Assembly: GCF_024053505.1 (NCBI RefSeq)
Contig: NZ_JAMXQS010000003.1
Coordinates: 372,001-436,000 of the forward strand
Length of the DNA stretch: 64,000 nucleotides
Origin: Mesorhizobium liriopis
GTDB lineage: Bacteria > Pseudomonadota > Alphaproteobacteria > Rhizobiales > Rhizobiaceae
Direction of reading: 5' to 3'
Within the stretch, counting starts at the first letter, position 1; each line of letters opens with the position of its first letter. Under the pieces are notes generated by a model. It was given only the letters and a program-made list of their open reading frames with translations. It ran no database searches and was not told the DNA's origin. Below are positions 1 through 11,037 of this stretch, in pieces. The translations under genes were made by a program, and so were the position numbers.

Positions 1-205
1 GCAGGCTGACCGACAGCACATCCGCATTGAGCAACAGCCGTGGCTCGAGCGGATCGAAAAGGAGGCGCTCACGGTTGTGGCGCTTGGCTGCCGCAGAGTG
101 CAACAGCCGCGCCAGCCAGTTCTGACGCAGTGAAAGGCGCGAGGCCGCGACCTTGCGCCCCCGTGGACGGCCGGTGATGCCCTCGGACTTGAATGGGAAA
201 GCCAT
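1..205 (-). CDS. N-terminus of an LEPR-XLL protein, probably a giant surface protein (cut by window edge)
   Basis: Reading leftwards from an ATG at 205, the frame stays open to base 1 and gives 68 residues. It begins MAFPFKSEGITGRPRGRK, is strongly basic, and near residues 54-63 has LFDPLEPRLLLNAD. This matches the LEPR-XLL signature (L-E-P-R-x-L-L-x-A-D), known from the N-terminus of very large repeat-rich secreted or surface proteins in proteobacteria. There is no classical signal peptide, which is typical of this group and implies a dedicated exporter. The SapC-family gene ends 54 bases upstream on the same strand, so the two are probably cotranscribed. An AAGG lies about 12 bases before the start. 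The size and repeats cannot be seen because the gene leaves the window. Confidence 0.75.
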   Translation of the reverse strand, partial: MAFPFKSEGITGRPRGRKVAASRLSLRQNWLARLLHSAAAKRHNRERLLFDPLEPRLLLNADVLSVSL

Positions 206-259
206 TGCCGTGCCGCCTTCGCTGATGCGCCGCTGGTATGGTTTGGTCTGGTGGAAAAA

Positions 260-1069
260 TCAGTTCAGTGACGACGCGCTCGGCGCGGTGTCTTCTTCAG
301 CCTGAGCGGAAGCCTCACCCACCGAAGCTTCGATCGCATTGCCGCCTTCCGGCAGTTGCAAGCGCTCCGCCGTGGCGGTGAAGTTCCGTAGGGAATGAAG
401 GTGGGCGTAGATTAGGTCTAGCTCATCGGACCGCGCCAGGGTTTCGAGCTTGTCACCCGACAAAGCCTTCAGGCGATCTGCATTGACGGCCTGAAAGCCT
501 GTCAGCGTCATGCGCTGATTGCCGGGAAGGGTGAACTGGGCCTGCATCGGCTCGAGCAGATCGAGTTCGGCGAGCCGCCTGGTGAAAGCCTGCGTGCGAA
601 TGAATTGCTGCTGGTAGGCCTGCAGAAAGCCCAACACACTCTGAAGATATTGCGTACGCTCACCGGCACTGTCGAACAGACGTTCGCCAATGCCATCCGT
701 GTTGGCGCCCGAGAAATCCTCATCGATGCAAAGGGTGAAATTATCTCCCGCATCCGTGCTTGCGAACACGAACGGATAGCGGCGCAGGAACGCCGGCACA
801 TACTTGCCGCTCCAAGCGCCATCCTCTTTCACGAACAGGTTTTCGTTGTCGCGCACGCCGAGCAGCACCACCGGAATGATTTCCTGCCCCTCGCCTGCGA
901 AGACGATGGCATATTCCGGCGACACGGCGCCGAACTCCGCCGTCATCAGCGGCACAGAGTTCACATGGCGCGCAAAGCCGAAATCGTTTCCGGCCTTGAC
1001 CGAGATCGCGCCATGGTTCTGGCGCGACACCGGAACGGCGCGCTCATAGATCAGAAGCTGCTTGGACAC
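260..1069 (-). CDS. SapC family protein
   Basis: The 269-residue product has the SapC-family pattern: KAGNDFGFARHVNSVPL near residue 25, a block EYAIVFAGEG, then VLLGVRDNENLFV, KYVPAFLRRYPFVFA and FTLCIDEDF. The family (PF07277) is named after a Campylobacter fetus S-layer locus protein; its biochemical role is not settled. I place the start at the GTG at 1069 (VSKQLLIYERAVPVS) because GGGGGA lies five to nine bases upstream. An upstream ATG at 1120 would only add a non-conserved tail. The last 25 residues are an acidic, low-complexity extension. It sits directly before the LEPR-XLL gene, which fits a role in making or anchoring that surface protein. The family call is firm, the function inferred. 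Confidence 0.85.
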   Translation of the reverse strand: MSKQLLIYERAVPVSRQNHGAISVKAGNDFGFARHVNSVPLMTAEFGAVSPEYAIVFAGEGQEIIPVVLLGVRDNENLFVKEDGAWSGKYVPAFLRRYPFVFASTDAGDNFTLCIDEDFSGANTDGIGERLFDSAGERTQYLQSVLGFLQAYQQQFIRTQAFTRRLAELDLLEPMQAQFTLPGNQRMTLTGFQAVNADRLKALSGDKLETLARSDELDLIYAHLHSLRNFTATAERLQLPEGGNAIEASVGEASAQAEEDTAPSASSLN

Positions 1070-1381: not shown

Positions 1382-2233
1382 TCACGCACGACCGCGATGG
1401 GGTCTCATTCCATAGTAGATCGTCGTAAAGTCGACACCACGGCGGCCGAGTCCGCCGGACACGTGGCCGAATGCATGCGCACGCGACGCGGCAAGCAAGG
1501 CTTCCGATGCTGGCACCGGCACATGATAGGCAGCGAGCAATGCCCGGATCGCCCCTTCGAAATCGGCGACAGCGAGCTCGGCAGGATATATATTGAGATC
1601 GAAGGAGAGCCGAGGGGCGCCCTCGTCCTCGACTTCCATGAAGAAGAAGCAGTCCTGCGCACCAGTTCGCACAAGCTTCATAAGGATCGCCCGCGCCAGT
1701 GCGACGGACGGCATTCCCGCGCCATTTGCGAAAAGTGTGCCGAGCCGATGCTCGGCGCCTGAAACGGTTCGCGCCATGGCGGGGTTGAAGTAGCGAGAAA
1801 CGGCGGGCGCCTCATCGCTGTTCGGCCGCCATTTGGCGGCAAGGTGGATGAGCGTCCGTGCCTCCGCCCCGTCCTTCGGATGAGCGCGACCAAGCTCGAG
1901 ATAGATCTTTACGCGATCAGGGCCTTCGAAACCGAAATGGACGAATTCCGCCTGATCGAGCAAAGCAAGGAATCGATCGCGCAAATCCGCAGGCATCGCC
2001 AGGGCATGCATCAAACTTGCTATCCGCAAAGCCGCATCGGGACCGAACGCGCCTTTATGAAGAAGCGCGGCGAAGCGATCGTGATTGACGCCATCGGCTG
2101 AAATTTTGAACGACCGCTCCAACCCGAACTCGCAGCCCAGCCCTTCCAAAGCCTGGAGCAAGCGCTGACCGACCGGCGAGAAATCGGATGCGGAAACTTT
2201 CAAGCATGACCTCATGATAGCTCGAGCAAACAC
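1382..2233 (-). CDS. Unrecognised protein, 283 aa, start or frame uncertain
   Basis: I do not recognise the family. The product is soluble-looking, without signal peptide or membrane segment. It has an RVKIYLELG strand near residue 109, a later LSFDLNIYPAEL, and near the C-terminus HVSGGLGRRGVDFTTIYYG, spaced like strands of an alpha/beta barrel or sheet enzyme. The displayed start is a GTG at 2233 with no ribosome site; an ATG at 2215 is no better. The neighbouring frame is open upstream from an ATG at 2360 and carries plausible protein (SLGDRTVSRMAQDGEGPSGF). It would join this frame at about base 2206 by a single-base shift in CTTGAAAG. The true gene may therefore be 2360-1382 with a frameshift. 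It lies upstream of the SapC gene on the same strand. Confidence 0.5.
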   Translation of the reverse strand: MFARAIMRSCLKVSASDFSPVGQRLLQALEGLGCEFGLERSFKISADGVNHDRFAALLHKGAFGPDAALRIASLMHALAMPADLRDRFLALLDQAEFVHFGFEGPDRVKIYLELGRAHPKDGAEARTLIHLAAKWRPNSDEAPAVSRYFNPAMARTVSGAEHRLGTLFANGAGMPSVALARAILMKLVRTGAQDCFFFMEVEDEGAPRLSFDLNIYPAELAVADFEGAIRALLAAYHVPVPASEALLAASRAHAFGHVSGGLGRRGVDFTTIYYGMRPHRGRA

Positions 2234-2394: not shown

Positions 2395-3699
2395 ATGCGC
2401 CGGACCAAGCTTGTCCTTCTGACCGCCACTGCATTGGTGCTGGCTGCAAGCGCAACCGGCGCTTCGGCTGCGGATGCAGTCACAGAAGCTCCCATCGTCG
2501 CGACCGGTCCCTCCTGGACGGGCTTCTACATCGGTATCCATGGCGGCGCGGCGAGTACGACGCTGGATTATGACCTGCTTCCGGTTTTCGCCGGCGACGA
2601 CACGACAAGCTACCGCTTCGCTGAGCAGGAATTCGCCTATGGCGTGCATGGCGGCTTTGACTACCAGTTCGCGCCGCGCTGGGTGGCCGGCGTGGAACTC
2701 GACTACACGCATATCTCGGCCGACTATGAGCCCTTCAGCGCCGGTGGCCTGGGTACGCTGGCGAGCATCGAGCACGCCTTCTCGGCATCGGGCCGGCTTG
2801 GCTATCTCGTGACGCCGCAAACACTCGCTTACGGCAAAGTCGGCTATGCCGGCATTCGCGTCGAAGCTGAAGAGGGCTTCGATGGCACGGCAAGCGACAC
2901 GCTCGGCGCTCTTGCGGTGGGCGGCGGCATAGAAACCTTTCTATGGGGCAATCTCACGGGGCGTGTGGATGCGACCTACTTTTCCGCGCAGGATGAGTTG
3001 GAAACCACGGACCTCGAAGCATTCGAGCCCAAGACGCTTCTGGTGACCGCCGGCCTGTCCTACCGCTTCGGCGCGCAGGCCAATGCGCGTGAGGTAACGC
3101 CGGCCGCAGAAACCTCCTTCAACGGCTTTTACCTCGGCGTCGCTGGCGGGATCGGCAGCGCTCAGCTGGACCGTGACATCGACGTCCCGGGCGCGACCGT
3201 GGACAGCTTCGGCGACGAAAGCGGCATCGCCAATGGCTTCATCGGCTACGATCTGCGCTTCGGCAATGTGGTGGCGGGCGTCGAAGGCGAGTATTCGTAT
3301 CTCAAGGCGACCTTCGACGATCCGGATCTGAATTCCTTCTTTACCGGAGCCACTGACGAATTCGCGAAGCTCGATGGAATCTGGGCCGTATCGGGTCGGC
3401 TGGGTTATGTCGTGACCCCCTCGACCTTGGTCTATGCCAAGGCCGGTTATGCTGGCTTCATGATCGAATCCAACGGCGACTTCTTCGCCGCCGATGGAGA
3501 CGATGATAAGGACCTTTTGAACGGCTATCAGGTAGGAGCCGGTGTCGAGACCGCTCTATCCGAGCACGTCTCGCTCCGCGTCGAGGGCTTGTATGCCGAA
3601 GCGGTGGATCAGATCACCATCGACAACAGCCAGTTCGATCAGGTGACGATCGAACCGCGCGTGGTGTCCGGTAAAGTCGGCCTGGCAATCCGCTTCTGA
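2395..3699 (+). CDS. Outer-membrane beta-barrel protein with two tandem Omp25/31-like barrels
   Basis: The start is the ATG at 2395, with AGGGGAA five bases before it. It opens a classic signal peptide cut after ASA near residue 24. The mature chain repeats the same unit: WTGFYIGIHGG to GLSYRFG (about residues 37-226), then FNGFYLGVAGG to GLAIRF (about 242-434). Both units contain the GRLGY(L/V)VTP-TL-YAK(V/A)GYAG segment typical of rhizobial Omp25/Omp31 proteins. The protein ends in phenylalanine, the usual barrel-assembly signal. Single-barrel members are about 200-250 residues, so this is roughly double length. It could be a structural porin or part of the neighbouring surface system; nothing ties it directly to export. 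Confidence 0.85.
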   Translation: MRRTKLVLLTATALVLAASATGASAADAVTEAPIVATGPSWTGFYIGIHGGAASTTLDYDLLPVFAGDDTTSYRFAEQEFAYGVHGGFDYQFAPRWVAGVELDYTHISADYEPFSAGGLGTLASIEHAFSASGRLGYLVTPQTLAYGKVGYAGIRVEAEEGFDGTASDTLGALAVGGGIETFLWGNLTGRVDATYFSAQDELETTDLEAFEPKTLLVTAGLSYRFGAQANAREVTPAAETSFNGFYLGVAGGIGSAQLDRDIDVPGATVDSFGDESGIANGFIGYDLRFGNVVAGVEGEYSYLKATFDDPDLNSFFTGATDEFAKLDGIWAVSGRLGYVVTPSTLVYAKAGYAGFMIESNGDFFAADGDDDKDLLNGYQVGAGVETALSEHVSLRVEGLYAEAVDQITIDNSQFDQVTIEPRVVSGKVGLAIRF

Positions 3700-3808: not shown

Positions 3809-3868
3809 GCAGGAAACCGGTTTCAGCAGGGACTGAGCCGCCAGTATCTTGTCTTCGGGGGAATGGGG

Positions 3869-4168
3869 ATGGCCAAGGCGCCGAATGCCGGTGAGGCAAA
3901 TGGGGAAGCCGCGCCTGCGGTTGAGTGGCTCGAAGAGCGCATGGCGACCCACTTCGCCAATGTCGTGAACGTGCAGGGCACGCGCGAGCAGGTCGATCTG
4001 TTCTTCGGCACCAACCGCACCTGGAACGTCGAGGAAAGCAAGACGCTTTCGGTCGAGCTTTCCAATCGCATCATCCTGACGCCGCTCGCCGCCAAGCGAC
4101 TGGCGGGCGTGCTCAACGGCGTGCTGCGGGAACATGAAGCGCGCTACGGCGCCCTCGATCTCGAATAG
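3869..4168 (+). CDS. DUF3467 family small protein
   Basis: This 99-residue protein carries the DUF3467 pattern: an N-terminal region with ANVVNVQGTREQVDLFFGT, a central beta hairpin (VELSNRIILTP), and a helical end AAKRLAGVLNGVLREHEARYG. DUF3467 proteins are small cytosolic proteins of unknown function. I chose the ATG at 3869 rather than 3863 because GGGGGA (3857-3862) then sits at proper spacing, while it would abut the earlier ATG. The next gene begins 14 bases after the stop, so this is the first gene of the export operon. It may be a chaperone or regulator for the downstream apparatus; that is inference from position only. Confidence 0.8.
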   Translation: MAKAPNAGEANGEAAPAVEWLEERMATHFANVVNVQGTREQVDLFFGTNRTWNVEESKTLSVELSNRIILTPLAAKRLAGVLNGVLREHEARYGALDLE

Positions 4169-4182
4169 GGCAGGCATTTCCC

Positions 4183-6069
4183 ATGCGAACCCCGGCGGCG
4201 AATGACGGTGCAAGCAGTCCAGCCGCCGAGGCCCTGGACGCCCGCTCCCTGACCCTGCTCGAGCCCGCACTGTGGCAGCGGCTCAATGCGGCACAGGATT
4301 CCGACGAACTCGCGACCGCCTGGCTCGCGCTCCAATGCGGGATGATCCCCGGCGTGGTCGGGGCAGTCGTGCGGGTGGCGGAAGAAAAGAGCCCGGCCGA
4401 GCTGCCGCTCAAACTCCTTGCCGCGTGGCCCGAGAACAGCGCCGACAACGCAGCTTTGCGCGAAACGGCGACCATGGCGCGGCGCGAGGCGCGGCCGATC
4501 GCGCGAACGCCCAAGCCGGATGCGCCACGTCCTACCGTCGCCTATCCCATCATGTTCGGCGACGACGTCGTGGCTGTCGTGGCGCTTGAACTTCAGGCCG
4601 CCGGCAAGGACGAGTTGCGCGGCGCGATCCGCCAGTTGCAATGGGGTTCGGCGTGGCTGCGCGATCACTTGCGCGAACGCCGTGCCAGTTCCGGCGCATC
4701 CCAGCTCGCGCGCTCGCGCGCCACGCTGGAACTGATCGCGGCCGTTCTCGATCACGAGACGTTCGAAGCATCAGCCATGGCTGCCGCGACCGAGATGGCG
4801 ATCCGCTTCGACTGCGCTCGTGTGTCACTGGGCTTCGTCCGCCGCGGGTCGTCGCGGCTTGCGGCCATTTCGCATACCGCGCAATTCGGTCGCCAGATGG
4901 CGCTGGTGCGCGCGATCGGTTCAGCCATGGACGAGGCCATCGACCAGCGCGCGGCGATCCTCTTTCCCATCGGCCACGACGAGGCGCTCGCCACGCGGGC
5001 CCATGCAGCGCTCGCCCGCATGCAGCACGATGGCCAGGTACTCACCGTGCCGCTCTTCGTGGTGGACCGCTTCATCGGCGCCTTCACTTTCGAGCGCTCG
5101 CGCGGCCATGCTTTCTCGGGCGAAACGATCCGCCTGCTCGATCTTGCGGCGACCGCGCTCGGACCGATCCTCGAAGAGAAACGCCGCAACGATTGCTGGC
5201 TGATCACCAAGATCGGACTTTCGTTGTTCGAACAGGTGAAGCGTCTCGTCGGACCCGGCCATGTGGCGCGCAAGCTCGTGGTCGCGGCCTTGATAGCTGC
5301 GGGTCTGTTCTTCTCGTTCGCCACCACCATGGACCGCGTGAACGCCGACGCCGAACTCGAAGGTTCCGTGCGCCGTGCGGTTGTTTCCGCCTATGACGGC
5401 TATATCCAGGAAGCCTCGGTGCGTGCAGGCGAGATGGTCGAGGCCGGCCAGGTGCTCGCCACGCTCGAAGACCGCGAGCTTTCGCTCGAACGTCTCAAAT
5501 GGGCGACCGAGCGTCAGCAGCATGCTTTCGAGTATGACAAGGCGCTCGCCTCGCGCCAGCCGGCGACGATCAATGTCATCCGTGCCCAGATCGATCAGGC
5601 CGATGCCCAGCTTGCCATGATCGACGAGCAGATCGCCCGCACGCGGCTGACGGCTCCCTTCGACGGCCTCGTTGTCTCGGGCGACCTCTCACAGCGCGTG
5701 GGCGGTTCGGTCAGCCGGGGCGAGACATTGTTCGAGATCGCACCGCTCACCGACTATCGCGTGATCATGCAGGTGGACGAGCGCCGCATCGCGAGCCTCA
5801 AGGAAGGCCAGTCGGGCGAGGTGGTGTTCACCGCCCTCCCCGAGGAAAGCTTTCCGGTTGCGGTCGACAAGATCACGCCCGTCGCCGAGACCCATGACGG
5901 CAAGAACATGTTCAAGGTCGAGGGCAGTCTGGCCGGCGCCACGGAGCGTCTGCGCCCCGGCATGATCGGCATCGCCAAGGTCGATGTCCAGGAGGAACTG
6001 CTGATCTGGACATGGTTGCGCCCGGCAGCCGACTGGATGCGCCTCGCTTTCTGGCGCTGGATGCCCTGA
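4183..6069 (+). CDS. GAF-domain / HlyD-family periplasmic adaptor fusion
   Basis: The 628-residue protein joins a cytoplasmic sensory half to an export adaptor. Residues about 35-160 and 185-335 look like two GAF-type domains; the second runs from LIAAVLDHETFEASA to LFVVDRFIGAFTFE. A single membrane helix follows at about 365-385 (VVAALIAAGLFFSFATTM). Beyond it is an HlyD adaptor: a biotinyl-lipoyl half-motif (VSAYDGYIQEASVRAGEMV), a short coiled hairpin at about 430-480, the second lipoyl half (TRLTAPFDGLVVSGDLSQ), and a beta-barrel end. HlyD adaptors bridge inner-membrane exporters to outer-membrane channels; fused GAF domains are uncommon and could sense a cytoplasmic signal. It lies 14 bases after the DUF3467 gene and 3 bases before the M50 gene. 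Confidence 0.85.
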   Translation: MRTPAANDGASSPAAEALDARSLTLLEPALWQRLNAAQDSDELATAWLALQCGMIPGVVGAVVRVAEEKSPAELPLKLLAAWPENSADNAALRETATMARREARPIARTPKPDAPRPTVAYPIMFGDDVVAVVALELQAAGKDELRGAIRQLQWGSAWLRDHLRERRASSGASQLARSRATLELIAAVLDHETFEASAMAAATEMAIRFDCARVSLGFVRRGSSRLAAISHTAQFGRQMALVRAIGSAMDEAIDQRAAILFPIGHDEALATRAHAALARMQHDGQVLTVPLFVVDRFIGAFTFERSRGHAFSGETIRLLDLAATALGPILEEKRRNDCWLITKIGLSLFEQVKRLVGPGHVARKLVVAALIAAGLFFSFATTMDRVNADAELEGSVRRAVVSAYDGYIQEASVRAGEMVEAGQVLATLEDRELSLERLKWATERQQHAFEYDKALASRQPATINVIRAQIDQADAQLAMIDEQIARTRLTAPFDGLVVSGDLSQRVGGSVSRGETLFEIAPLTDYRVIMQVDERRIASLKEGQSGEVVFTALPEESFPVAVDKITPVAETHDGKNMFKVEGSLAGATERLRPGMIGIAKVDVQEELLIWTWLRPAADWMRLAFWRWMP

Positions 6070-6072
6070 TCC

Positions 6073-8217
6073 ATGGCCAAGTCGCTCTTCAGCGCATCCT
6101 GGTATCGCGTGGCCGGCCTCAAGCTGCGCCTGCGGGGACATGCCGAGATCCATCGGCAGCGCTTTCGCGGCCAAGTCTGGCACGTGCTGCAGGACCACCA
6201 GACCGGTCGCTTCCACCGCCTGTCGCCGGCCGCGAACCTCATGGTTTCGCTCATGGACGGGCGTCGGACGCTGCACGAGATCTGGGAAATGGTCGGCCGT
6301 CGCGCGGGCGACGATCCGCCTACACAGGACGAGGCGATCCAGCTTCTCGCCCAGCTTCACGGCTCCGACCTGTTGCAGGGTGAATTACCGCCTGATTTTT
6401 CCGAGCTCTCCGAGCGCTCCTCCAAGCAGGCCCGATCGAATCTCCTGTCGCGCATCCGCAACCCGATGGCGCTGCGCCTCCCGCTGTTCGACCCCGACCG
6501 GTTCCTCGACCTCACTCTACCGCTGGTGCGGCCGGTCTTTACGGTCTGGGGCTTTCTCTCTTGGGCCGGTCTCGCCCTTTCGGCCGTCGTGCTCGGCGCG
6601 CTACATTGGCGGGAACTGACGGCGGACGGCACCGATGCACTCCTGAGCACATCGAACCTGCTGCTGATCGCGGCGATCTATCCTCTCATCAAGGCGATCC
6701 ACGAGGCGGGCCACGCCTATGCCACCAAGGTCTGGGGCGGCGCGGTGCACGAGGTGGGCGTGATGCTGCTCATCCTCATTCCCGCTCCTTATGTGGATGC
6801 GACATCCTCTATCGCCTTCCGGCAACGCTGGCGGCGCGTGCTGGTGTCGGGTGCGGGCATCATGGTCGAGTTCGCGCTGGCCAGCATCGCGATGATCGTA
6901 TGGGTCAATGCCGAGCCGGGCCTCGTGCGCGCGGCAGCCTTCAACGTCATGCTGATCGGCGGCGTCTCGACGCTCTTCTTCAACGGCAATCCGCTGCTGC
7001 GCTTCGATGGTTACTACATCCTCGCCGACCTGCTCGAGATCCCCAATTTCGGCACCCGCGCGAACAAATATTTCTGGTATGTGGTCCAGCACTACCTGTT
7101 GGGCATCGAGAATGCCGAGAGCCCGGCGGAACTGCCCGGCGAGCGCAAGTGGCTGTTCGGCTATGCGATCCTGTCTTTCATCTATCGCACGGTTCTCAGT
7201 CTCACCATCGCGCTGCTCGTCGCCGGCAAGCTGTTCTTTGTCGGCGTGATGCTGGCGCTGATCTCGCTCTACGGCACCTTCGTCTCACCTGTATGGAAGG
7301 GCGCCAAGTACCTGTTCGCCGCGCCCAAGCTCGAAGGCCACCGCAAGCGGGCGCTTTGGACATCTGGGGGGCTTGTCGCCGCGTGCCTCGCCCTGTTCTT
7401 TGTGGTTCCCCTGCCCTTTGCCACGATGGCGCAAGGTGTCGTCTGGGTGCCCGACCATGCAGAACTGCGCGCCAAAGCCGCCGGCACGGTCAGCGACGTG
7501 CTCGCGATGCCCGACACGATCGTGGCTGCCGGCGCGCCTCTCGTGCGTCTGGAAGACCCGTCCACCAGCGGGCGGGTCCGGCTTCTCGAAGCGCAGAAGC
7601 GCGAGCTGCAATTACGCTACGAGGCCGTGCGCTTCGCCGACCGCACGCAAGCCGACATGCTGCGCGAGCAGATCCGCAACGTCGATGGCGTCTTGGCGTC
7701 GGTCAAGCAGCGCAGCGAGGATCTCGTGGTACGCGCGGAGCAGAGCGGGCGCTTCGTGCTGCCCGATGCTGCGAACCTCAGAGGCCGCTTCGTCAAGCAG
7801 GGCGATCTGGTCGGCTACGTGATGGCGAAAGCGACGCCAGCATTGCGCGTGATCGTGCCGCAGGATGAGGTCGATCTGGTGCGCGCCCGCACCAAGGACG
7901 TCGCCGTGCGCTACGCGAGCGCGCTTGACCATGTGGTGCCGGCAAGGATCGCGCGCGAGGTGCCGTCCGCCCAAGTCGACCTGCCGAGCCTGGCGCTTTC
8001 AGTGGAAGGCGGCGGCAGCATCGCCACACGCGCCTCGCGCGATGGTGCGAAAGCCGTGCAGGGCCTTTTCGTTTTCGATCTCCTGCCGGATGCAGCAACC
8101 GCCGGCACCATGATGGGCAGCCGTGTCTATGTGCGCTTCGATCATGGCACGGAGCCGATCGCGTGGCGCGTGGCGCGCACCCTCCGCCAAGTCTTCCTGA
8201 GCCATTTCGATGTCTGA
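6073..8217 (+). CDS. M50-type zinc metalloprotease / HlyD fusion membrane protein
   Basis: The 714-residue protein has three parts. Residues 1-110 form a PqqD-like winged-helix domain (GRFHRLSPAANLMVSLMDGR). Residues about 150-465 are polytopic membrane with the site-2-protease zinc motif HEAGH at 210-214 and the partner motif NPLLRFDG at 306-313, so the metal ligands are intact. Residues about 465-714 are periplasmic and HlyD-like (lipoyl half-motif, coiled segment at 510-560, second lipoyl half, barrel). This is the layout of the 'putative peptide zinc metalloprotease' proteins found with peptide and bacteriocin exporters. It may clip or handle the exported protein at the membrane. Its last 8 bases overlap the SecA-like gene, implying coupled translation. 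Confidence 0.85.
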   Translation: MAKSLFSASWYRVAGLKLRLRGHAEIHRQRFRGQVWHVLQDHQTGRFHRLSPAANLMVSLMDGRRTLHEIWEMVGRRAGDDPPTQDEAIQLLAQLHGSDLLQGELPPDFSELSERSSKQARSNLLSRIRNPMALRLPLFDPDRFLDLTLPLVRPVFTVWGFLSWAGLALSAVVLGALHWRELTADGTDALLSTSNLLLIAAIYPLIKAIHEAGHAYATKVWGGAVHEVGVMLLILIPAPYVDATSSIAFRQRWRRVLVSGAGIMVEFALASIAMIVWVNAEPGLVRAAAFNVMLIGGVSTLFFNGNPLLRFDGYYILADLLEIPNFGTRANKYFWYVVQHYLLGIENAESPAELPGERKWLFGYAILSFIYRTVLSLTIALLVAGKLFFVGVMLALISLYGTFVSPVWKGAKYLFAAPKLEGHRKRALWTSGGLVAACLALFFVVPLPFATMAQGVVWVPDHAELRAKAAGTVSDVLAMPDTIVAAGAPLVRLEDPSTSGRVRLLEAQKRELQLRYEAVRFADRTQADMLREQIRNVDGVLASVKQRSEDLVVRAEQSGRFVLPDAANLRGRFVKQGDLVGYVMAKATPALRVIVPQDEVDLVRARTKDVAVRYASALDHVVPARIAREVPSAQVDLPSLALSVEGGGSIATRASRDGAKAVQGLFVFDLLPDAATAGTMMGSRVYVRFDHGTEPIAWRVARTLRQVFLSHFDV

Positions 8218-10195
8218 CTTCGCTCTGCGCGCGCCCGTTCCGGTGCTCTACGGCGAGCGGCCGCAGAAACCCAAAAAGCCGCTCGACGAGCAGGCCGCGC
8301 GGCTCTTCTCGCCGCTCAAGCTCTTGGGCGCCGAGCTTCGCGCCAAGCGGCTTGCCCGGATCGTGCCCAGGGTCGAGGCGCTGAATGAGGAGATGCGGAC
8401 GCTTTCCGACGAGGCGTTGCGGGCACGGGCACGCAAGATCGGCCAGACGCTCAGGCGCGACGGCGACTTCTCGATGGATACGGTGGCACCCGCCTTCGCG
8501 GTCACTCGCGAGATTTCGGGCCGATTGAGCGGGCGGCGGCACTACGGCGTCCAGATGATCGGCGCCTATGCCATGCTGCGTGGCAACCTTGCCCAGATGG
8601 CGACGGGTGAAGGCAAGACTTTGACAGCCGCGCTTGCGGCGGCCACCGCGGCGCTCGCCGGAGTGCCCATCCATGTGGTCACGGTGAACGACTACCTCGC
8701 CAAGCGCGACGCCGAACTGACCGAGCCGATCTATCGCTTCCTCGGCTTTTCCGTGGGCGTGGTCGTCAGCGGCCAGAAGACCGAGGAGCGGCAGGCGGCC
8801 TATGCCTGCGACATCACCTATTGCACCAACAAGGAACTGACCTTCGACTACCTGCGCGACCGCATCGTGCTCGGCCAGCGCGGCAGCAATCTTCAGCTCA
8901 AGCTGGAAGCGACTGAGAGGGAGAAGGCGCGGACGAGCGAATTGCGCCTGCGCGGGCTGCATTTCGCCATCGTGGACGAGGCCGACAGCGTGCTCGTGGA
9001 TGAAGCGCGTACGCCACTGGTGATCTCACGCGAGGAAAAAGGTCAGGTTTCGGCCGAAACCGCGACACAGGCCCTGATGCTCGCCGCCGATCTTGTGGAG
9101 GGAACAGATTACCATCTCAATGCCGAGCAGCGCCGCGTGCAGCTGACAGCACAAGGCCGCGACCGCGTGGAGGAATTCGCGCGCGATCGGGGCGCGGAAT
9201 GGCGCGGCGTGGTGGTGCGCGAGGAACTGGCGAGACAAGCCCTTTCCGCATTGCTTCTCTTCCACAAGGGCGAGCAATATCTGGTCCGCGAGAACAAGGT
9301 GCAGATCGTGGACGAGCATACCGGCCGCGTGATGCCCGATCGCGCCTGGAGCGACGGGCTGCACCAGATCATCGAAGTCAAGGAAGGCTGCAAGCCTTCG
9401 GCGCGGCGCGAGACCATCGCGCGGATGACCTATCAGCGCTTCTTCCGCCGTTACCGGCGGCTTGCCGGCATGACGGGGACGGGGCGGCATGTGGCGGCCG
9501 AGTTCTGGTCGGTCTATCGCCTGCCCGTGGTGCAGGTACCGACGCACCGGCCACGCCAGCGCATCGATTTGGTCGATCGCGTCCTGCTGAACGACGAAAC
9601 CAAGTGGCGGCTGGTGATCGAGCGGGTCGCCGCACTGAATGCGAAAGGTGTTCCGATCCTGCTTGGCACACGCTCGGTCGCTTCCGCGCTCACCGCAAGC
9701 GAGCGGCTCACTGCAGTCGGCCTCGACCACGAGATCGTCAGTGCCGCGCAAGACAGCACGGAAGCGGCAGTCGTGGCCCGTGCGGGAGAGCGTGGCGCGA
9801 TCACGGTCGCGACCAACATGGCCGGACGCGGCACGGATATTCATGTCGCCGACGAGATCGAGGTTTTAGGCGGCCTCCATGTGATCATGGTGGAGCGACA
9901 CGAGGCGCGCCGGATCGATGACCAGCTCGCAGGCCGCTCGGGACGTCAGGGGCAGAAGGGATGTTTCCAGGCGATCCTGTCACTGGACGACCCGATCCTC
10001 GACTTCGCACTCTCGCAAAGCATGCGAAAACTTTGCCGGCTCGCACCTGCGCGGCTCGGCGAAATGCCTGCGCGGCTCCTGCTCCGCCACGCTCAGAAGC
10101 GCGCCGAGCGCATCCATGCCCGGATGCGGCGCGACCTTCTCAAATCCGACGAAAACCAGATCAAGACGCTGGCCTTTACCGGCCGGGCGGAGTGA
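8210..10195 (+). CDS. Shortened SecA-like preprotein translocase ATPase
   Basis: The SecA motor motifs are present in order: Walker A MATGEGKT (GEGKT at 133-137), VTVNDYLAKRDAE, a DEAD box at 256-259 followed by VLVDEARTPLVIS, the preprotein-crosslinking region, MTGTGRHVAAEFW, TNMAGRGTD (535-543), and RHEARRIDDQLAGRSGRQG. E. coli SecA has about 390 residues after TNMAGRGTD; this protein has 118. It stops just after AQKRAERIHARMRRDLL, the counterpart of the start of the long scaffold helix. Most of the helical scaffold, the helical wing, two-helix finger and C-terminal zinc tail are missing. It is therefore a SecA paralogue, not the housekeeping enzyme. It overlaps the M50 gene and is followed 8 bases later by an adaptor gene. 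Confidence 0.9.
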   Translation: MSDFALRAPVPVLYGERPQKPKKPLDEQAARLFSPLKLLGAELRAKRLARIVPRVEALNEEMRTLSDEALRARARKIGQTLRRDGDFSMDTVAPAFAVTREISGRLSGRRHYGVQMIGAYAMLRGNLAQMATGEGKTLTAALAAATAALAGVPIHVVTVNDYLAKRDAELTEPIYRFLGFSVGVVVSGQKTEERQAAYACDITYCTNKELTFDYLRDRIVLGQRGSNLQLKLEATEREKARTSELRLRGLHFAIVDEADSVLVDEARTPLVISREEKGQVSAETATQALMLAADLVEGTDYHLNAEQRRVQLTAQGRDRVEEFARDRGAEWRGVVVREELARQALSALLLFHKGEQYLVRENKVQIVDEHTGRVMPDRAWSDGLHQIIEVKEGCKPSARRETIARMTYQRFFRRYRRLAGMTGTGRHVAAEFWSVYRLPVVQVPTHRPRQRIDLVDRVLLNDETKWRLVIERVAALNAKGVPILLGTRSVASALTASERLTAVGLDHEIVSAAQDSTEAAVVARAGERGAITVATNMAGRGTDIHVADEIEVLGGLHVIMVERHEARRIDDQLAGRSGRQGQKGCFQAILSLDDPILDFALSQSMRKLCRLAPARLGEMPARLLLRHAQKRAERIHARMRRDLLKSDENQIKTLAFTGRAE

Positions 10196-10203
10196 CCCAT
10201 TCC

Positions 10204-11037
10204 ATGACGCGCATCGCTCTCCTCCCCGTTTTCGCTTCGCTTCTCGCGAGTTCCACTGCCGCCTGGGCGGAGGAGACGGTGTTCGACTGCCTCGCCGAGC
10301 CGGCGCAAAGGGTGCAGGTGGGAAGCCCGGTGGTCGGGCTCCTGTCCTCCGTCGAGGTCGGGCGCGGTGCCTTGGTCGAGAAGGGTGCCGTGCTGGCGCG
10401 GCTCGATTCCAAGGTCGAGGAAGCCAATCTTGCCATGGCCCGCGCACAGGCCGAGGCTACCGAAGCGCGCGACGCGCAGCAGACGCGCCTGACGCTGGCG
10501 CAGGCCTCGCTCGACCGCTCCAAGAAGCTCGAAGGATCGGGTAACGTCACGCGCTCCAAGCTCGAAGAGCTTCAGGCGACGGTGGACATCGCCAAGCGCG
10601 ATCTCGACACCGAGGAGCGCAAGCTACGCCTCGCCGCAATCGAGGTCGAGCGCCAGCAGGCGCTTCTGGCGCGCCAAAGCATCGTCAGCCCTTTAAGGGG
10701 CTTCGTCGCCGAGCAGAACCTGCGCGCGGGCGAGTTCGTCCGCCAGGACAGCGCGATCCTGACGCTCGTCCAGACCGACCCGCTCTTCATCGAGGCCTAT
10801 ATGCCGGTCTCGCTCTGGGGCAAGATCACAGCGGGCGCGCAAGGCCGCGTCGCGGTGGAGCAGCCGGCCGGCACGGTGCGTGAGGCCTCCGTCACCGTGG
10901 TCGACCGTGTGTTCGATGCGGCGAGCGGCACTTTCGGCATCCGTCTCGAACTGCCTAATCCCGACAATGCGATCCCCGCCGGCCAGCGCTGCCGCCTCTC
11001 CTTCGACCTCGCGGCAGAAGTTGCGCAGACGCGCTGA
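10204..11037 (+). CDS. Periplasmic adaptor subunit (HlyD/RND membrane-fusion family)
   Basis: I start this 277-residue protein at the ATG at 10204, because GGAGTGA lies upstream and it opens a clean signal peptide (MTRIALLPVFASLLASSTAA, cut near AWA). The mature part shows the adaptor fold: VQVGSPVVGLLSSVEVGRGALVEKGAVLA (first lipoyl half), an alpha hairpin at about 70-150 rich in Ala, Glu and Arg, SIVSPLRGFVAEQNLRAGEF (second half), and a beta-barrel end. Members form the periplasmic bridge of tripartite exporters. It is last in the export operon; no inner-membrane pump or TolC-like channel follows, and the next gene converges after 7 bases. An earlier in-frame start overlapping the SecA-like gene would destroy the signal peptide. 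Confidence 0.85.
   Translation: MTRIALLPVFASLLASSTAAWAEETVFDCLAEPAQRVQVGSPVVGLLSSVEVGRGALVEKGAVLARLDSKVEEANLAMARAQAEATEARDAQQTRLTLAQASLDRSKKLEGSGNVTRSKLEELQATVDIAKRDLDTEERKLRLAAIEVERQQALLARQSIVSPLRGFVAEQNLRAGEFVRQDSAILTLVQTDPLFIEAYMPVSLWGKITAGAQGRVAVEQPAGTVREASVTVVDRVFDAASGTFGIRLELPNPDNAIPAGQRCRLSFDLAAEVAQTR

Follow-up and report, generated by a model that had tools for sequence, protein, structure and literature searches.

The DNA analyzed here, referred to below as the window, is a stretch of 64,000 nucleotides from the 4.48-Mb genome of Mesorhizobium liriopis (G000:C16:372001-436000). At its left edge, the minus strand codes for a SapC family protein and, from an ATG 54 bp downstream of the SapC stop codon, for the N terminus of a LEPR-XLL protein; the initial annotation had placed a SapC-family gene directly before a LEPR-XLL gene, and this order is borne out. 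About 2.8 kb beyond SapC begins an operon-like set of genes on the plus strand (3863-11037), which codes for a DUF3467 protein, HlyD-type adaptors, an M50 fusion protein (M50-HlyD) and an accessory SecA-like ATPase (Table 1).

Table 1. Features at the left end of the window, in window positions
Feature	Positions	Strand	Evidence or remark
LEPR-XLL giant, first 68 residues	1-205 (ATG at 205)	-	Rest of the gene left of the window
LEPR-XLL motif (FDPLEPRLLLNAD)	5-64	-	NF012209, 24.6 bits (cut-off 17)
Basic leader segment, residues 1-47, upstream of the LEPR motif	65-205	-	Sequence
SapC family protein, 269 aa, GTG start	260-1069	-	PF07277, 241.4 bits, E = 1.1e-71
283-aa frame upstream of SapC	1382-2233	-	No Pfam or NCBIfam match
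Outer membrane beta-barrel protein upstream of the apparatus operon	2395-3699	+	OMP_b-brl, OmpA_membrane
DUF3467 protein, 101 aa, apparatus operon gene 1	3863-4168	+	PF11950, 58.5 bits
GAF-HlyD (GAF part, adaptor part)	4183-6069	+	PF13185, PF13437, PF16576
PqqD-like/M50/HlyD fusion (M50-HlyD)	6073-8217	+	PF05402, 24.5 bits (cut-off 23.4)
Accessory SecA-like ATPase, 661 aa	8210-10195	+	PF07517, 338.7 bits
Periplasmic adaptor (HlyD/RND_mfp)	10204-11037	+	TIGR01730, 115 bits (cut-off 94.9)
ABC ATPase, 358 aa	11045-12121	-	No membrane part

Followed leftward along the contig, the LEPR-XLL gene is a single open frame of 29.6 kb (C16:342635-372205) coding for 9,856 aa. It contains both the basic N terminus GRPRGRKVAASR and the LEPRLLLNAD that the initial annotation had quoted, with the NF012209 match, above the curated cut-off, falling at residues 48 to 66; in a genome scan the motif scored 30.1 bits at G000:C16:372005-372064. 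The body of the protein carries an LktA-type tandem repeat (87.4 bits, cut-off 50; above the cut-off in one of the two matching stretches), and RTX nonapeptides (PF00353, 281.6 bits) lie near the C terminus, in the C-terminal third. The repeat-bearing gene of several kilobases that had been predicted to the left is therefore there, and not the short protein without repeats that had been named as the contrary outcome.

The SapC protein matches positions 2 to 218 of the 220 of PF07277, far above the gathering cut-off of 28.9 bits, and the genome holds no other SapC match. A hydropathy scan found no N-terminal hydrophobic segment and a single internal one (residues 54 to 73) barely above the threshold of 1.6. 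The N terminus aligns with those of relatives, among which a YxPAxxRRYPF core is conserved. An AlphaFold2 model from 3 sequences reached a pLDDT of 39.9, and comparison by sequence with solved structures retrieved no convincing relative of either SapC or M50-HlyD. The 283-aa frame upstream of SapC has a 116-bit match in another genome, G174, between SapC and GAF-HlyD (within frame L040 12621-15440); on the basis of this position, the frame may be part of the locus.

In the plus strand operon, DUF3467 has a recurrent place in the gene order: in five named plasmids it stands before an adaptor or HlyD gene of the apparatus. Hydropathy analysis predicts one likely membrane segment in GAF-HlyD (about residues 361 to 385, with 45 to 67 flagged as well), several transmembrane-like segments in M50-HlyD, and a signal peptide-like N terminus in the terminal adaptor. 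The M50 part of M50-HlyD scored only 21.8 bits in Pfam, below the cut-off of 27.2, and NF041824 matched residues 21 to 404 with 150 bits, below its cut-off of 300; its HEAGH and NPLLRFDGYY motifs are both intact. Across 32 aligned M50-HlyD proteins, a distant class included, H210, E211, H214, N304, P307, D312 and Y314 are invariant in all 32; the Pfam M50 model matches 30 of the 32 at E up to 0.01, and the PqqD model only 16. Given the invariance of the protease motif residues, M50-HlyD is more likely to be a working protease than a mere pore.

Aligned with the 894-residue housekeeping SecA frame that the same genome encodes elsewhere (C21), the accessory SecA-like ATPase retains the motor motifs and the preprotein-binding domain. 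It ends at the long scaffold helix of canonical SecA and lacks the remainder of the housekeeping frame, with the wing, the two-helix finger and the tail. All 33 SecA-like frames scoring above 800 bits, that of the window among them, end at most 3 residues from the end of the family-model match. No ABC exporter was found in the apparatus operon of the window; the ABC gene next to it on the other strand appears, judged by eye, to be of the sugar-import type. A scan for promoters and terminators gave matches not above about the chance level.

To place these genes in context, we surveyed 199 genomes from the order of the window (order sample) and 398 genomes from its phylum (phylum sample), reading loci as stop-to-stop frames scored with home-made HMMs. 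M50-HlyD is present in 8 of the 8 genomes of the order sample with a strong LEPR gene, as against 18 of 199 overall (p = 8e-10), where the strong class (E up to 0.0015 and an open frame of at least 1,000 aa) was set after the match list had been seen and leaves out G046 (E = 0.0012, frame of 169 aa, 5.9-kb contig, no M50-HlyD), with which the count becomes 8 of 9. M50-HlyD was found in 90 of the 398 phylum genomes, in a survey that scored 2 candidates per genome, so that the cluster counts are lower bounds. Among 38 phylum genomes picked for M50-HlyD, 36 have a LEPR match above the cut-off. The order sample has 32 such genomes out of 199, many of them with weak matches in frames some hundreds of residues long. 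A LEPR gene lies within 60 kb on the same contig for 23 of the 45 M50-HlyD genes above 300 bits, the contigs of some of the others ending sooner. In 53 stretches with an M50-HlyD above 500 bits, some of which show one cluster twice, some of which are cut by contig ends, and a few of which are of the distant class, GAF-HlyD occurs in 47, the SecA-like gene in 45, HlyD in 28, DUF3467 in 20 and SapC in 14.

The same association can be followed on plasmids. A Pseudosulfitobacter plasmid has a LEPR-XLL gene of 38.8 kb with genes for HlyD, a site-2 protease, SapC, a SecA-like protein and an adaptor; a Pontibrevibacter plasmid has LEPR-XLL, DUF3467, adaptor, PqqD/M50, SecA-like and adaptor genes; and a Thalassospira plasmid has LEPR-XLL, DUF3467, HlyD, M50-HlyD, adaptor and TolC genes, without SecA. 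Two of the SecA-like proteins on plasmids (L222 20809-22833 and L227 22222-24138) bear the RefSeq label "prepilin peptidase," and Pfam recognizes only SecA and helicase domains in them. The SecA-like gene was also not found in the fetched stretches of Thalassospira, G365 and G507, nor beside the distant M50 class in three plasmids. Since variants without a SecA-like neighbor exist, SecA cannot be required everywhere. The loci of the distant class (L233, L234 and L235) have TolC, adaptor and HlyD genes and no SecA-like gene; their neighbors are large genes for repeat proteins on two plasmids of Azospirillum and, in Magnetospirillum, a repeat gene of 1.5 kb. In G254 and G466 the SecA-like gene is broken into two or three frames (L140 11357-13349; L136 4083-6504), by decay or assembly error. 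On the basis of these surveys, LEPR genes are accompanied more constantly by the M50-HlyD apparatus, encoded on the opposite strand, than by SapC.

SapC itself follows a patchier distribution. We used 81 of 95 SapC matches (34 from the order sample and 61 from the phylum sample; 13 were not fetched and one is a fragment below 100 bits), and 17 of the 81 loci show a link with either the apparatus or a LEPR gene, 16 by a LEPR gene or M50-HlyD within 60 kb and 1 more, on a short contig, by standing beside SecA-like and M50-HlyD genes. The remaining 64 are without a visible link, some of them on short contigs. The linked SapCs sit in three parts of the SapC tree, where the fewest changes that account for the link are 7, as against 15.0 when shuffled, at least 5 of them forced by well-supported branches. 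The clade of the window is linked in 7 of 7 cases; its sister, one of four SapCs in G365, is unlinked. The co-occurrence of SapC and LEPR genes is upheld in the order sample (SapC in 6 of 8 strong-LEPR genomes versus 29 of 199, p = 1.3e-4), and the two genes, whose adjacency the initial annotation proposed to count, adjoin in many genomes, so that the contrary outcome, no co-occurrence elsewhere, did not materialize; the tie of SapC to LEPR genes holds for the clade of the window and does not extend to the family as a whole.

Measured from the side of the apparatus, SapC occurs in 5 of 5 genomes of the order sample with the close M50 class versus 1 of 13 with the distant class only. Of the 45 M50-HlyD genes above 300 bits, 11 (12 with a fragment) have SapC at a distance of at most 15 kb, many contigs being short, and at least seven genomes with an M50-HlyD above 300 bits have no SapC. 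In the phylum sample, SapC must be dispensable, since only 29 of 38 M50-HlyD genomes carry it. In four operons (G143, Pseudosulfitobacter, Sinorhizobium chiapasense and Ensifer adhaerens), at least two of which belong to close relatives, SapC stands between the M50 and SecA-like genes. SapC was found in 51 plasmid records, seven of them at 47% identity or more. In five of these seven (Pseudosulfitobacter, Sinorhizobium, Ensifer, Alisedimentitalea and Rhodobacteraceae M382), a giant stands beside SapC or the operon, with the apparatus on the plasmid; the giant is a LEPR protein in three of the five, two by annotation and that of Alisedimentitalea by a motif upstream of the annotated start, the giant's N terminus lying outside the stretch in Sinorhizobium and Ensifer. 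Within 20 kb of the SapC gene on a Thiodictyon plasmid, neither a LEPR gene nor the apparatus was found; beside that on a Gemmobacter plasmid, there are only VCBS-domain genes and no LEPR or apparatus link was found; and no giant was found next to the gene in three further plasmid cases. A search of named genome contigs with a single SapC gave 2 loci: a gammaproteobacterial metagenome-assembled genome (MAG), in which SapC is followed by a LEPR gene, and a Chitinivibrionales MAG, in which an RTX-rich frame is followed by SapC 1.2 kb on. Both encode a SecA frame of accessory length (683 and 666 aa, respectively). A scan of viral sequences with 16 SapCs found no match; an unannotated fecal "Bacteriophage sp." record has a SapC-like frame of 27.5% identity (MT835646.1 14544-15218).

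Several unlinked SapCs lie near unrelated housekeeping genes and others near TonB receptors. SapC stands directly after FHA-type giants in Thalassospira marina (L237 4944-5711) and Azospirillum argentinense (L238 4980-5705) and, in Sphingobium sp. TKS (L239 4932-5738), some 0.7 kb ahead of an autotransporter gene of 21.5 kb; in G085 and G077 it stands beside PATR-repeat frames. We counted large neighbors around 44 unlinked and 10 linked SapCs, each flanked on either side by 4.6 kb or more, and in 40 control regions. Within 2.5 kb, open frames of at least 1,200 aa occur at 6 of 44 unlinked SapCs versus 1 of 40 controls (p = 0.07) and at 5 of the 10 LEPR-linked ones; frames of at least 1,500 aa occur at 3 of 44 versus 0 of 40 (p = 0.14); and frames of at least 1,000 aa occur at 12 of 44 versus 1 of 40 (p = 0.0014), these last including TonB receptors, a mechanosensitive channel and an Amt-GGDEF-EAL protein. 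A wider pattern of SapC beside giants is, measured against these 40 controls, suggestive only. Two simple descriptions of the family were discarded: that of an apparatus member everywhere, given that it lies within 15 kb of so few M50-HlyD genes, and that of a LEPR-only family, given the number of linked loci. SapC is, instead, a part-time member of apparatus and LEPR loci.

The initial annotation had suggested that the basic N terminus followed by the LEPR motif could be an export signal read by the neighboring apparatus. We tried 41 loci for leaders and read 35, the other 6 having no motif by the search pattern. The 40 residues before the motif, which may include some upstream of the true start, have a mean net charge of +5.5 (range, 0 to 11), and only 1 of the 35 leaders reaches, over 15 residues, the hydrophobicity that a usual signal requires. 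Since the search pattern demands both the E and the R of LEPR, their invariance is no finding; of the positions that the pattern leaves free, the second after XLL is A or G in 34 of 35 leaders, and the second before the first residue of the motif is E or D in 28 of 35. XLL is followed directly by D in 5 of 5 genomes with the distant M50 class only versus 0 of 12 with the close class only (Fisher p = 1.6e-4, kinship not removed), in a table made by hand from which genomes with both classes are excluded and in which G188 and G466 (both S) stand outside the 12. In G446, with both classes, D occurs in the leader beside the close-class cluster. Were M50-HlyD to read the leader, the position after XLL would be expected to follow the M50 class in this way, and the view of the LEPR leader as an export signal read by the apparatus agrees both with the sequence and with the way in which it varies between apparatus classes. 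In Alisedimentitalea, the motif of the giant (L283 9226-9351, minus strand) lies just upstream of the annotated start, and the annotated protein therefore lacks the leader.

Taken together, these gene associations make it probable, at roughly 0.6, that LEPR giants are the cargo of the apparatus, that the basic LEPR leader is their export signal, and that SapC is a cytosolic accessory. The SapC-LEPR pair would then be one half of an export locus and the plus strand operon the other, with the 9,856-aa RTX giant as the cargo and its positively charged N terminus plus the LEPR-XLL motif as the targeting signal. PqqD/RRE domains capture peptide leaders, and the PqqD-like domain of M50-HlyD may grip this one in the cytoplasm. 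The SecA-like ATPase, whose motor motifs are intact, would give the driving force, a role proposed for such a module in PMC4452313. The M50 part, with its protease motifs, may cut the leader and perhaps line the passage through the inner membrane, from where the two HlyD adaptors, with a TolC encoded elsewhere, would take the chain across the periplasm. Calcium-driven folding outside the cell is established for RTX proteins, and calcium would likewise fold the RTX part of the giant there. In the weakest step, soluble SapC may, on the cytoplasmic side and in a subset of loci, hold or target the giant. The lack of an N-terminal signal, the conserved core and the distribution across loci favor a cytosolic accessory; its mechanism of action is a guess. 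Because SapC also directly adjoins FHA-type and autotransporter giants, it may assist giant surface proteins that leave the cell by several different routes. A stronger version is put forward tentatively, and we hold it to be rather doubtful as a whole. In it, the largest bacterial proteins would have a distinct route that dispenses with an ABC exporter: the basic LEPR leader would be gripped by a PqqD-type domain, the push would come from a SecA that lacks the finger, both leader cleavage and the bridge across the envelope would fall to an active M50 protease-adaptor, and SapC would serve as a cytosolic chaperone.

Much of the same evidence can be read differently as regards SapC. LEPR giants might use the M50-HlyD apparatus with SapC as just a frequent passenger or as a factor acting after export or in regulation, as the 64 of 81 loci without a visible link (some on short contigs), the housekeeping and TonB neighbors of several SapCs, the scatter of linked SapCs over three parts of the tree, and the 9 of 38 M50-HlyD genomes without SapC would all allow. 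Against a mere passenger speak the 7-of-7 linkage of the window's clade, the recurrence of the same place between M50 and SecA-like genes in the four operons (at least two from close relatives), and the skew of SapC toward the close M50 class in the order sample; we regard this reading as unlikely on balance, though a serious contender.

The cargo assignment has rivals of its own. The genome has two PrtD-type ABC exporters above the cut-off, which count against the assignment, and a TolC-type gene elsewhere; the giant could therefore leave by the ordinary type I route, with an unlinked PrtD/HlyB exporter reading a C-terminal signal, as the RTX repeats at its C-terminal end would befit, and with the SecA/M50 operon having some other job. 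The PrtD gene at C11:388425, however, adjoins a 524-aa RTX frame of its own, LEPR genes track M50-HlyD (in 8 of 8 cases in the order sample), and the incomplete gene table of the named plasmids annotates no exporter-type ABC gene within their apparatus operons; we consider this route improbable. Least probable of all appears to be that the N-terminal 60 residues act as a Sec signal of unusual form and that the giant passes SecYEG helped by the accessory SecA, in the manner of Gram-positive SecA2 substrates. The preprotein-binding domain of the SecA-like ATPase would suit such a role, but a hydrophobic core is absent from 34 of the 35 leaders and the ATPase is without the C-terminal part, with wing and two-helix finger, that meets SecYEG in canonical SecA. 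The finger is one of the places where canonical SecA makes this contact. For the wing, the contact is described in PMC4452313.

Returning to the reading of LEPR giants as cargo of the apparatus, the position of SapC beside a giant and near a likely dedicated exporter suggests a possible function for both the orphan machine and SapC. If it is true, three orphans (a machine, a leader motif and the SapC family) would explain one another, and the export of bacterial proteins of 5,000 to 15,000 residues would become directly testable in tractable strains.

The apparatus corresponds to a module with a secondary SecA_DEAD protein, M50, HlyD and GAF described by Kamneva, Poudel and Ward in 2015 (PMC4452313), who reported the loss of all or part of the wing-scaffold of its SecA, suggested that M50 might form a pore and that SecA is the energy-giving ATPase, and called the biological role of the module completely unknown. 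According to the same paper, the GAF, M50, SecA_DEAD and HlyD genes of Methylobacterium extorquens AM1 are META1p2402-2399. The window agrees with it in bringing GAF-HlyD, M50-HlyD, SecA_DEAD and HlyD together at 4183-11037 and in a SecA likewise without all or part of the wing-scaffold, on alignment with the genome's own SecA. It adds a candidate cargo, SapC and DUF3467 as members, intact protease motifs, the PqqD-like domain and the leader motif; the main text of PMC4452313 has 0 occurrences of LEPR, SapC, giant or RTX. In the accessible portion of the open-license PMC literature, preprints aside, we found no link of LEPR-XLL proteins to the SecA_DEAD module or SapC and, since 2015, no substrate or role for a second-SecA module. 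For this conserved Gram-negative module, described without substrate or role, LEPR-XLL giants are candidate cargo. The window giant resembles the known LEPR-XLL proteins (NF012209) in its motif above the curated cut-off near the N terminus and in its size; the passages available on those proteins do not mention an exporter.

The exporter of Campylobacter fetus encoded by sapCDEF is a type I ABC system, whereas the window locus has SecA-like and M50-HlyD genes and no ABC exporter. The likeness, drawn from description, is that in both cases a gene of the SapC family accompanies what would be the secretion genes of a surface protein. According to PMC4943207, the sapCDEF genes are essential for the S-layer of C. 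fetus. The PqqD-plus-M50 part of M50-HlyD resembles the intramembrane metalloproteases of daptide and other RiPP systems (NF041824), from which it differs in scoring below their curated cut-off and in being fused to HlyD. With type I secretion (HlyB/HlyD/TolC), finally, the locus shares HlyD adaptors and a candidate RTX cargo, and TolC lies next to relatives; it differs in an operon without an ABC exporter and in an N-terminal leader that would replace, or add to, the C-terminal signal.
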